This document shows positions 38,819-41,863 of a DNA stretch of 43,449 nucleotides, one piece after another. Numbering within the stretch: position 1 is the stretch's first letter; each line of letters begins with the position of its first letter. The notes under the pieces were generated by a model. The model worked only from the letters and a program-made list of their open reading frames with translations. It made no database searches and had not been told where the DNA came from. The stretch comes from a bacterium. GTDB lineage: Bacteria; Vulcanimicrobiota; Vulcanimicrobiia; Vulcanimicrobiales; Vulcanimicrobiaceae. A program made the translations under genes and the position numbers. The DNA is taken from assembly GCA_021778415.1 (NCBI GenBank), contig JAJYCL010000025.1:1-43449 (forward strand), given 5' to 3'.

Positions 38819-41323
38819 GTGACGAACGAGCTCATTTCTACAATCAACGTCGAAGACGAGATGCGCGAGAGTTATCTCTCGTATGCCATGTCGGTCATCG
38901 CCTCGCGCGCACTTCCGGATGTGCGCGACGGACTCAAGCCTGTGCAGCGGCGCATTCTTTTCGCCATGCGCGAGATGGGATTAGATCCATCGAAGCAGCA
39001 TCGCAAATGCGCCGGTATCATCGGTGAAGTCCTCAAATCGTACCATCCGCACGGCGATTCGTCGGTGTACGACGCGCTCGTGCGCATGGCGCAAGATTTT
39101 ACCTTACGCTATCCGCTCGTCGACGGTCATGGAAACTTCGGCTCGATCGATCCCGATCGTCCGGCCGCCTATCGTTATACGGAAGCTCGCTTAGAGCGTC
39201 TTTCCCTCGATGTTTTAGCCGACATCGATAAAGAGACGGTCGCGTTCATTCCCAACTTTGATAATCAAGGGACGGAACCGGCGGTGCTTCCCGGCCGCGC
39301 TCCGCAATTGCTCATCAACGGCAGCAGCGGTATCGCTGTCGGTATGGCGACGAACATTCCGCCGCATAACCTCAATGAAATCTCCGATGCGATTGCCGCA
39401 ATCATCGATGATCCCAACGTCTCCGATGATGCACTCTGCGATATCGTCAAAGGCCCCGATTTCCCCACGGGCGGCGTCATCATGGGCCAAGAAGCCATTC
39501 GCGAAGCCTATAAGACGGGTCGCGGTTCGATTTCAATTCGCGGCAAAGCCGAGATTATCGAAGAAAAAGGCAAATTCAAGATCGTCATTACGGAAATTCC
39601 GTATCAGGTCTATAAGAGCCGCATCGTCGAAGCCATTGCCGAGGCACATTCCGAAAAACGCATCACCGGAATTGCTCGTTTGGACGATCTTTCAAACCGT
39701 AAGGGGATGAAAGTCGTCGTCGAACTGCAGAAATCGGCGACACCGAAAGTCGTGCTCAATCAGCTGTATAAGCATACGCCGCTGCAATCGTCGTTCGGCT
39801 TTAATATGTTGGCGCTCGTTCCGGTTGGCGAGCCTCGTGCGAATGGCACGGTTGCGCTCGAACCCCGCGTTCTGCGCCTCAAAGAGATTCTCGAATTCTT
39901 TATCGAGCATCGTAAAGACGTGGTCTTGCGCCGAACGAAATTCGATCTTCGCAAGGCCGAAGAGCGCGCGCATCTTCTCGAAGGCTATCGCATTGCGCTT
40001 GATAACATCGATGAAGTTATCCGGCTCATTCGCGCGAGTGCGACCACCGACGAAGCCAAGAAGGCGCTCGTCGCCCGCTTCGGCCTCTCGGATATTCAGT
40101 CGCAAGCGATTGTCGATATGCGCTTGCGCACCCTCACCGGCCTCGAACGCAAAAAAATCGAGGACGAATATAACGAGTTGATCAAAACGATTGCCGAGCT
40201 CAACGATATTATCGCCAGCCCTCGCCGCGTTGCCGCCATCGTCAAAGACGAAACGTTGGAAGTGAAGCGTAAGCATGGCGATGCGCGTCGCACCCCGATT
40301 ATTCCGGCTGAAGATGAGATCTCGATGGAGCAACTCATCCCGAATACGGAAGTCGTCGTAACCTATACGGTTGGCGGCTATATCAAACGCGTCACCGTCG
40401 ATACGTTCCGCACGCAAATTCGCGGCGGACGCGGCGTAACGGGTATTGCCAACCTCAAGCGCGAGGATATTGTTCGCAATTTCTTTGCAACCAAAACGCA
40501 CGATCACGTCCTGTTCTTCACCAACAAAGGGCGCGTCTATCGGATGCGCGCGTATGAAATTCCCGATACGACCCGTACCGCGCGCGGCACGGCGCTCGTG
40601 AATCTTCTTACGCTGCCTCCGGGTGAGGAAGTCAGCGCGATTTTTGCAATCGATAAATTCGAATCCGATAAACATTTGGTGATGGTCACGAAGATGGGCG
40701 TCATCAAAAAGACCGATCTCTCCGAGTTCGCGAACGTGCGTCGCAATGGTCTCAATGCCATCAATCTCGATGAGGGTGATGAATTGCTGGCCGTCGATCT
40801 CTCCGACGGAACGCGCGATATTATTCTCGGAACCAAAGCCGGTATGGCGGTTCACTTCAACGAGAAGACCGTGCGTTCAATGGGCCGCAACGCTCGCGGC
40901 GTGAAAGCGATGACGCTCGATAGCGGAGATGAGATCGTCGCGATGGATGTTATCGAGGATGAACGTCGCGAAGTGCTGCTCGTTACCTCAAAGGCGTTTG
41001 GTAAACGTACGCCGATCGATGATTACCGCCACACGTCGCGTGGAGGAAAGGGTGTTAAAGCCTTTGCTCGCGAGCGTGAAGATATCGGCCATGTCGTCGA
41101 TCAAATTATGGTCGCACCGGATGATCAGCTCTTGATGATCACCTCCGCAAATCAGGTGATTCGCATTCGCGTAGCGGATGTGCGTCGAGCGGGACGCTCC
41201 ACCAAGGGCGTGCGTTTGCAGCGCATCGAAGGCGAGGGCGAGGTTATCGCGATTACCAACCTAGGAAAACAGGCGGAGTTGATTACGGGGATTACGGGCG
41301 AACCCCAGCAACCCGAACTCTAG
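38819..41323 (+). CDS. gyrA: DNA gyrase subunit A
   Basis: Type IIA topoisomerase breakage-reunion subunit, 834 residues, complete. Y120 in [10 protein letters not shown] is the active-site tyrosine; the quinolone region is [15 protein letters not shown] with Ser at position 81 and Asp at 85, the usual susceptible-type residues. The C-terminal six-bladed beta-pinwheel starts near residue 505; the GyrA box is present in divergent form ([15 protein letters not shown], about 739-753), which favours GyrA over ParC. Start GTG 38819 preceded by GGAG. gyrB is not in the window. An 18-bp palindrome and a hairpin terminator lie just upstream and a 105-bp near-palindrome directly downstream. Confidence 0.97.
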
Positions 41324-41428
41324 CATTTGACGGTGCAATGGCTCGGCTCTTCGTCGCCTCGGGTCTCGTGTACGCGTAGTACACGTCGACCCTCGGCTCC
41401 TCAATCCGAACCATTGCGCCGCCAAATG
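41324..41428. repeat. 105-bp near-palindrome directly after gyrA
   Basis: Beginning at the base after the gyrA stop, about 50-base arms mirror each other: CATTTG.CGG.GCAATGG.TCGG on the left and its reverse complement on the right, with an inner exact pair GTGTAC (41368-41373) / GTACAC (41379-41384) around a 5-base centre, the full element spanning 41324 to 41428. Mismatches occur in compensating places, so the RNA would form a long hairpin. No T run follows. It may be a REP/MITE-like mobile repeat, a terminator-like structure, or both. Confidence 0.7.
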
Positions 41429-41536
41429 CACATTTCGGCTGGTGAGGAGTGGCGCTGCGAAGGAGTGGCGAAAGCGAGTGGTTGCAACCTATTCTTGTGT
41501 GTTTGAGGTCTTTTAGGGCCGGAGGTTCTTACCACT
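41429..41536. other. Gap between the near-palindrome and trxA with short direct repeats
   Basis: Contains tandem-like short repeats (GAGGAGTGGCG, GAAGGAGTGGCG, then GAGTGG at about 41444-41481) beside the near-palindrome, then the trxA leader. GGAGG at 41521-41525 is the trxA ribosome site, 11 bases before the GTG. No clear promoter hexamers seen. Confidence 0.35.
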
Positions 41537-41863
41537 GTGAGCGCATTAGCTGAAGTTACCCAACAAAATTTTCAGACCGAAGTCCTCGGTCACGGCCAGC
41601 CGGTGCTGGTCGATTTCTGGGCACCATGGTGCGGCCCGTGCCGCATGCTTGCCCCGGTTGTCGAAAAAGTCGCTGCCAATAATGTCGGCAAAGCGAAGTT
41701 CGTCAAACTGAACACCGATGATAATCCGTCGATCGCAGGCGAGTATCAGGTCTCCGGAATTCCGTGCCTCATCCTGTTCAAGGATGGTAAGGCTGTCGAT
41801 CGGATCGTCGGCTATGTGCCGGAGAATACGATCTCGTCGATGCTCGCCAAGCACGTCGCCTGA
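41537..41863 (+). CDS. trxA: Thioredoxin
   Basis: A 108-residue thioredoxin with the intact active site FWAPWCGPCRML (about 28-39), the VDFWAPW strand, the buried Asp region and the cis-proline in GIPCLILFKDG. It reduces protein disulfides in the cytosol. Start GTG at 41537. An extra cysteine sits beside the cis-proline (IPCL), as in some thioredoxins. Its stop is followed directly by selA, so the two are probably co-transcribed. Confidence 0.96.
   Translation: MSALAEVTQQNFQTEVLGHGQPVLVDFWAPWCGPCRMLAPVVEKVAANNVGKAKFVKLNTDDNPSIAGEYQVSGIPCLILFKDGKAVDRIVGYVPENTISSMLAKHVA

Follow-up and report, generated by a model that had tools for sequence, protein, structure and literature searches.

A family of hairpins of ~105 nt, apparently new to the literature, occurs in one order of soil bacteria, where copies are found mostly at the 3′ ends of genes, in a single polarity, and selection preserves the fold on the strand opposite the adjoining gene (the minus strand in the case of gyrA). 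Because the copies sit mostly against gene ends and the fold is preserved on the opposite strand, the hairpins are probably functional. We found no published description of the element, in a search that reached little of the subscription literature and so leaves its absence there unproven. Among the readings of its role, none of them established, we rank an RNA element at gene borders first, a site of folded DNA second and a hairpin of the sense mRNA third.

In the window, by which we mean the whole stretch of 43,449 nucleotides analysed, a 105-nt inverted repeat at 41324 to 41428 starts one base past the end of gyrA (38819 to 41323, plus strand, with Pfam gyrase A domains) and is followed by 108 nt, trxA, selA and a partial selB-like gene, the last named by eye only. 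Folding of the 105 nt yields −56.1 kcal/mol, whereas shuffled versions give −28.7 ± 3.4 (z = −8.0), and since none of 200 shuffles folded as well, we concluded that the palindrome is not due to chance. The initial annotation had described a near-palindrome directly after the gyrA stop with a GTGTAC/GTACAC core, without a poly-T tract and without coding sequence, and all of this was confirmed: the core is present, no T tract lies next to the palindrome in either direction and no open reading frame of at least 80 amino acids crosses it. Between 41200 and 41700 we found no promoter-like site on either strand and a single terminator-like site, at 41691 to 41673, inside trxA. The adjoining short repeats, which had been taken to suggest a repeat family, are real, being a 16-nt tandem pair of GGAGTGGCG at 41438 to 41469, but there is no sign that they belong to the hairpin family, the flanks of its copies having no sequence in common (at most 0.21 bits per column in 119 copies outside genome G010).

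The minus strand of a 114-nt segment around the gyrA copy folds better than the plus strand (−72.1 versus −61.0 kcal/mol), and we describe the element on that strand, antisense to gyrA, where the whole hairpin (41324 to 41428, both strands folded) matches the covariance model described below at 94.9 bits. The layout common to the family is an outer stem of ~24 to 26 bp, near fixed in length and locus specific in sequence; inward from it come an internal loop rich in purines, a second stem, then a GA/A loop and a third stem topped by a small cap. In the gyrA copy, the minus-strand fold, arm variability and stem length define the outer stem P1, with its 5′ arm at 41406 to 41429 and its locus-specific 3′ arm at 41323 to 41346, the latter beginning at the final base of the gyrA TAG stop codon. 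Internal loop A, placed by the fold and the alignment columns, has a conserved AGG run on its 5′ side (41398 to 41405) and a conserved ACGA run on its 3′ side (41347 to 41355). The fold and the analysis of pairs place stem P2 at 41388 to 41397 (5′ side) and 41356 to 41365 (3′ side, with a 2 × 2 mismatch in this copy). Loop B, from the fold and the alignment columns, consists of a conserved GA at 41386 to 41387 facing a single conserved A at 41366, and stem P3 with its terminal loop (41374 to 41378) fills 41367 to 41385, as judged from the fold, the caps and the pair analysis.

The initial annotation had proposed BLASTN against the rest of the genome as a check, and this was near-negative despite the existence of a real family, because the outer arms differ between places: it returned this one full copy, two fragments that look like decayed copies (C41:64854 and 64925) and ten other, short matches. 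When the inner part was searched by BLASTN in 60 relatives, it was found in several places, up to 14 of them in one genome, and the relatives' copies had a common design in which the inner part is conserved and the outer arms vary by place yet complement each other. RNAalifold on 24 copies gave 37 pairs, 33 of them with double changes. A covariance model (R1) made from 24 BLAST-found seed copies detected four strong copies in the genome itself (80.6 to 99.2 bits), which follow the genes for a PilZ-domain protein, a Glu/Leu/Phe/Val dehydrogenase, a DEAD-box helicase and GyrA; one match fell in this contig, as expected from the annotation of a single copy in the window. A fifth match (C56:31368, E = 0.003) was rejected as, by eye, a different palindromic repeat. 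With four strong copies at home and 108 copies aligned from this genome and its relatives, the suspected repeat family was borne out. The 108 copies (set A3) were chosen, best scores first, from 100 sources, with 25 from G010, after an E-value limit had removed reverse-strand duplicates and one short partial match; throughout, we read copies antisense to the gene that they adjoin.

With stricter search filters, and among the matches listed, 59 of 118 genomes matched the model at an E value of 0.01, and 76 of 149 genomes across the phylum, this one included, matched at 1e-6. These 76 comprise 72 genomes of its own family and four of a second family of the same order; a further family (f15) gave two weaker matches (E = 8.6e-6 and 0.0067). 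At E = 1e-6, the hairpin family is thus restricted to two families of one Candidatus Eremiobacterota order, with copy numbers per genome from 1 to at least 33 (G010, in which 33 candidates were scored). An exact core pattern, which recovers no more than a fraction of the family (31 of 172 loci), occurred in 50 stretches among 84,980 genomes, all of them in Candidatus Eremiobacterota/Eremiobacteria records and 42 in the metagenome-assembled genome DAHUXH01. The pattern was absent from viral contigs, phages gave no match to the element and plasmids gave only four weak 35-nt Sinorhizobium matches (E = 0.4). Rfam 15 gave no match above a gathering score, either at the window's copy or in 20 copy-bearing loci; two matches far below that score, to the miRNA precursor models mir-3154 and MIR319, touch a copy. 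We also considered a separate short, core-only family in G010, where five candidates lie beside 39 long ones; one of the five folds as a full copy, and no such family is claimed.

Over the 108 copies, 96.4% of 3,946 pair cells are paired and 36 of the 37 pairs have double changes. The double changes fill 1,085 cells, against 264 ± 18 in shuffled alignments, and slid controls pair at 37 to 43%. Six columns, in or beside the purine loops, are invariant in all 108 copies. The caps are closed by C-G, the commonest being TACG (UACG in RNA; 29 copies, a count skewed by G010, which supplies 20 of them) and TATG (UAUG; 12 copies). The compensatory changes can also be seen at a single locus: G032 and G081 each have a copy after the same dehydrogenase gene, and these two copies, which share their outer arms, differ at 4 of the 37 model pairs, all by double changes and none broken, which implies that the fold is kept in place. 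Two ways in which such symmetry might have arisen, insertion into existing terminator palindromes and outward growth of the palindrome, were made less likely by the sharp fall in pairing at the model ends, from 0.98 five bases inside them to 0.78 at the ends, 0.41 two bases outside and ~0.3 beyond, although 22 of the 108 copies do pair for 4 to 12 bases further. Compensatory changes and strand-specific pairing are the general marks of a structured RNA, and having both, the element may be regarded as a putative one.

The strand on which the fold is kept was evident from the noncanonical cells. Read antisense, the 108 copies have G-U in 265 cells and A-C in 41 (61:19 in the outer stem, 129:6 in the middle stem and 75:16 in the inner stem, where 12 of the 16 A-C cells fall at one single pair), and copy by copy 92 favour G-U, 4 favour A-C and 12 tie, counts that come from alignments fitted to an antisense-strand model and so lean toward that strand. 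Independently of the model, 22 of the 24 BLAST-found seed segments fold better on the antisense strand, the two exceptions being tandem partial copies. We concluded from the G-U excess and the better antisense folds that the strand opposite the adjoining gene is under selection. This bears directly on the idea that the element works as a 3′ hairpin of the sense mRNA, which starts at the stop codon and would block 3′-5′ exonucleases or stall terminating ribosomes. Some Escherichia coli REPs lie close to stops, and those within 15 nt are reported to stall ribosomes (PMC12306157); the abutting copies here do occupy the 3′ end of the gene when read in sense, folding of the sense strand remains strong (−56 kcal/mol) and in some copies, described below, the element lies in a transcribed region. 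Against this, it is antisense pairing that is selected, A-C mismatches on the sense strand are tolerated, cells that break both strands or are gapped are fewer (115 versus the 265 G-U cells) and two copies follow tRNA genes, which have no stop codon. We therefore think a sense-strand role unlikely.

Placement was assessed with gene calls from our own codon-score script, no standard program being used. In 90 of the 108 copies, a gene points at the element on the 3′ side of the antisense hairpin, and in 77 the 3′ end of that gene is within 6 nt or overlaps; on the other side, a gene end is as close in only 18. Sixty-seven copies have a stop codon within ±6 nt (TAG in 38, TAA in 21 and TGA in 8), and ten more have it 9 to 18 nt inside the element. 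Stop usage near elements leans to TAG (39 of 81 versus 94 of 276), and a comparison repeat of the GTCATCCTGAG type lies within 6 nt of a stop in just 2 of 29 places in the fetched loci. Most copies are thus at gene 3′ ends in one polarity, with 31 of the 108 abutting no called gene end that points at them. At two loci (L154 and L158), it is a tRNA-Leu that the element follows, at a distance of 1 nt, which shows that the placement rule concerns the gene end rather than the stop codon. Two other copies, L116 (2492 to 2595) and L021 (about 1476 to 1578), lie 6 to 7 nt upstream of tRNA genes (Phe and Trp) on the same strand and break the polarity rule. At L135 (2517 to 2620), the final 13 nt of a tRNA-Pro gene lie inside the element, the tRNA 3′ end forming part of the outer arm, and at L095, L101, L107, L121 and L124 the called frame enters the element for 13 nt and ends at an internal TGA.

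At L094 and L145, two convergent genes each have their own copy, in opposite orientations. A convergent gene comes next at 42 of 81 gene ends that bear the element, compared with 26 of 62 other gene ends spaced by 100 to 600 nt, so that placement solely at convergent genes is unsupported and the element appears tied to the gene that it abuts and not clearly to convergent pairs. The initial annotation had also raised a terminating hairpin, and an intrinsic terminator of gyrA is indeed suggested by a strong hairpin directly 3′ of the gene. Of 143 copies, however, only 4 are followed by a U-rich tail in sense and 2 in antisense, and 13 have a canonical terminator further on, no more than 110 nt past the element (1 of 143 when shuffled). 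We consider this reading scarcely credible; in those 13 copies, the terminators further on imply that the element lies within the transcript. An independent noncoding RNA gene also became less probable, because no upstream motif is common to the copies; sites resembling a −10 box upstream in the RNA direction were found in 6 of 119 flanks, with 9 expected from shuffles.

Within a genome, core identity ranges from 0.69 to 0.93 in nine of the ten genomes, with G028 lower at 0.63, compared with 0.67 between genomes. The terminal 10 bp of the four copies in the window's genome have identities of 0.38 and 0.35, where 0.42 and 0.41 are expected by chance; together with flanks devoid of a motif, this goes against the earlier suggestion of a MITE with conserved ends. 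Outer-arm identity is at chance in G000, G009, G015, G029 and G065, and it is above chance in G010, G013 (0.60/0.58) and G028 (three pairs) and slightly so in G016 and G066. In G010, with a core identity of 0.93 and outer arms at 0.74 and 0.68, the copies look like a recent burst, which would mean that something copies the element. Twenty-one of the 80 copies with a sense gene fall into nine groups of related genes, named partly by eye, among them rpoD, gyrA (this genome and G066), clpX and the dehydrogenase. Tandem arrangements were seen in G017, where L258 (1538 to 1787) has, behind a PhoU-like gene (named by eye), one full copy and two partial ones in tandem, 84 bp apart, and L260 (1470 to 2191) holds three successive copies in ~720 nt.

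In one genus (g18), 30 gene ends, representing six genes in six genomes, comprise 11 with a model match, 5 with a half-element remnant recognised by eye and 14 with neither, and G067 has no copy at all. As sister species have lost copies, none of those there is essential. The initial annotation had named, as grounds against a repeat family, a single genomic copy together with absence from the gyrA 3′ ends of relatives. The second part stood, in that none of the 28 searchable relatives, G011 of the same genus as G066 among them, has the element at its gyrA 3′ end (29 were fetched, one being cut before the end; at L252 the absence rests on a model search of the whole locus); but gyrA of G066 is followed by the element, and several copies lie elsewhere in the window's own genome. 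Such patchiness among members of a genus, remnants at the same sites with half of the element deleted, lineage restriction and copy numbers from 1 to at least 33 would be expected of a functionless, selfish, REP-like repeat, made symmetrical by quasi-palindrome correction and found near stops because other sites are harmful. Symmetric correction would not, however, give six invariant columns or a strand-specific G-U excess, the stem length is nearly set and another repeat does not abut stops (2 of 29), all of which makes this explanation distinctly improbable.

The G010 burst also fits a hairpin of single-stranded DNA, in which the bottom (template) strand would fold, as it does in integron attC sites or at HUH transposon ends, and be bound or cut by a candidate recombinase or transposase, the position at gene ends then being an insertion rule. 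The size, polarity and strand of the element agree with those of attC sites. The searches for an enzyme argue otherwise: no genome of 16 exceeded the cut-off for the integron integrase (TIGR02249), a search in which no control genome exceeded it either and which thus lacks a positive control, and the weaker matches seen in 15 of the 16 were also seen in all 14 controls. The Y1 transposase (PF01797) had no match in 13 of 14 carrier genomes searched, the window's own and G010 among them, with a partial match in G094; elsewhere, it matched in two element-free genomes (G019 and G026) and in 5 of 14 control genomes, E. coli included. Furthermore, the foot of the stem has no conserved bases, paired changes at one locus across species are not expected of a mere mobility site and the G010 copies occur in both orientations within the same contigs. 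By analogy with known folded sites, then, such a DNA site is conceivable, and on balance we doubt it.

Further repeats were noticed at the ends of the same kinds of gene. After the clpX stop of G077 (L324), a different hairpin of ~170 nt with an outer stem of ~24 bp starts exactly at the stop; the antisense strand of the segment folds better (−114.7 versus −93.6 kcal/mol), and it may represent a second, similarly designed family. In G089 (L315), the rpoD stop is directly followed by a long inverted repeat with arms of ~30 bp, of which the sense strand folds slightly better (−112.3 versus −107.8 kcal/mol). A second dispersed repeat, of the GTCATCCTGAGCG type, follows gyrA stops in L224, L232, L234 and L235 and, over the fetched loci, comes within 6 nt of a stop at 2 of its 29 sites.

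The observations point to something that recognises the antisense strand, as a folded single strand, where a gene ends. The reading that we put first, and only tentatively, is that the hairpin is a structured RNA border element at gene 3′ ends that would act in antisense or convergent transcripts. RNA might enter a gene from its 3′ side when a convergent gene is read through or from a stray antisense start; once polymerase had passed the element into the gene, the new RNA would fold into a long capped duplex, which a double-strand-specific nuclease or a dedicated protein reading the conserved purine loops could bind or cut, the partner protein and the cutting step being guesses. Antisense RNA would thereby be kept from extending over the coding region. 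Consistent with this reading are the selection on the fold, the double changes in place, the antisense strand bias and the position at gene ends, as well as details on the antisense strand that resemble those of RNA (the invariant purine-loop columns and the C-G-closed UACG and UAUG caps). Against the border element stand the lack of a promoter-like or other shared sequence upstream in the RNA direction, convergent neighbors that are expected yet not clearly over-represented, tandem settings such as gyrA-trxA that offer no obvious source of antisense RNA, the 31 copies that do not abut, the reversed polarity of L116 and L021 and the losses in sister species.

Broader, and held with more reserve, is the conjecture that these hairpins form a system for marking gene ends, in which, within one bacterial order, the 3′ borders of many core genes (gyrA, rpoD, clpX, ftsZ and even tRNA genes) can carry an antisense capped duplex of set length and a lineage-specific protein would recognise its conserved purine loops and stop, cut or recombine nucleic acid entering the gene from behind; if true, such a system has not been described before. 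Paired changes at individual loci, antisense preference, a stem of nearly set length and free sequence and placement at gene ends are traits rarely joined in intergenic palindromes, and a family that BLAST nearly missed and Rfam 15 lacks was revealed only by a structure model. If it is a border or antisense-control element, it would offer a direct way to test how bacteria exclude antisense transcription from genes; if it is a folded-DNA site, it would point to an undescribed recombinase or transposase.

Compared with known systems, the family is not supported as a MITE, a RAYT-driven REP, an integron attC site or an intrinsic terminator, the GC-rich hairpin with a U tract that defines the last not being characteristic of it. 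NEMIS/Correia, ERIC and similar MITEs are palindromic intergenic repeats of ~105 to 160 bp that can be transcribed and have conserved terminal inverted repeats. The element is likewise palindromic, intergenic and of comparable length, but its ends are its least conserved part, with no terminal inverted repeats common to the copies and outer arms at chance identity in five genomes and above it in five. REPs are described as palindromes of 20 to 40 bp with a GTAG tag at one end, and REP/BIME repeats as dispersed, intergenic and mostly downstream of genes (PMC3733652). The element resembles the GTAG-tagged, RAYT-associated REP/BIME in being dispersed, intergenic, mostly 3′ of genes (77 of 108 copies within 6 nt or overlapping, where some REPs are within 15 nt of a stop) and of lineage-specific types, and it differs in its length of ~105 nt, its locus-specific arms, its four strong copies in the window's genome and the absence of a terminal tag, no bases being conserved at the foot or in the flanks. 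A RAYT-type REP is therefore not supported, for want of a GTAG-like foot tag and of a Y1 transposase match in 13 of 14 carriers searched. CGTC-tagged REPs, said to be without a dedicated transposase (PMC3733652), are palindromic too, and loop A of the element contains TCGTYGC on the sense strand; the string is internal and not terminal, however, and the element has three stacked stems and purine loops instead of one stem of 8 to 9 bp. The attC sites of integrons are folded bottom strands of roughly 57 to 141 nt that follow a gene stop and are poorly conserved in sequence. Whereas the element lacks conserved foot boxes, is conserved in its core and not at its foot and has as its named hosts core genes in single places, it has in common with attC sites a folded bottom strand, structure kept over sequence, a similar length and a position directly after the gene stop in one polarity.
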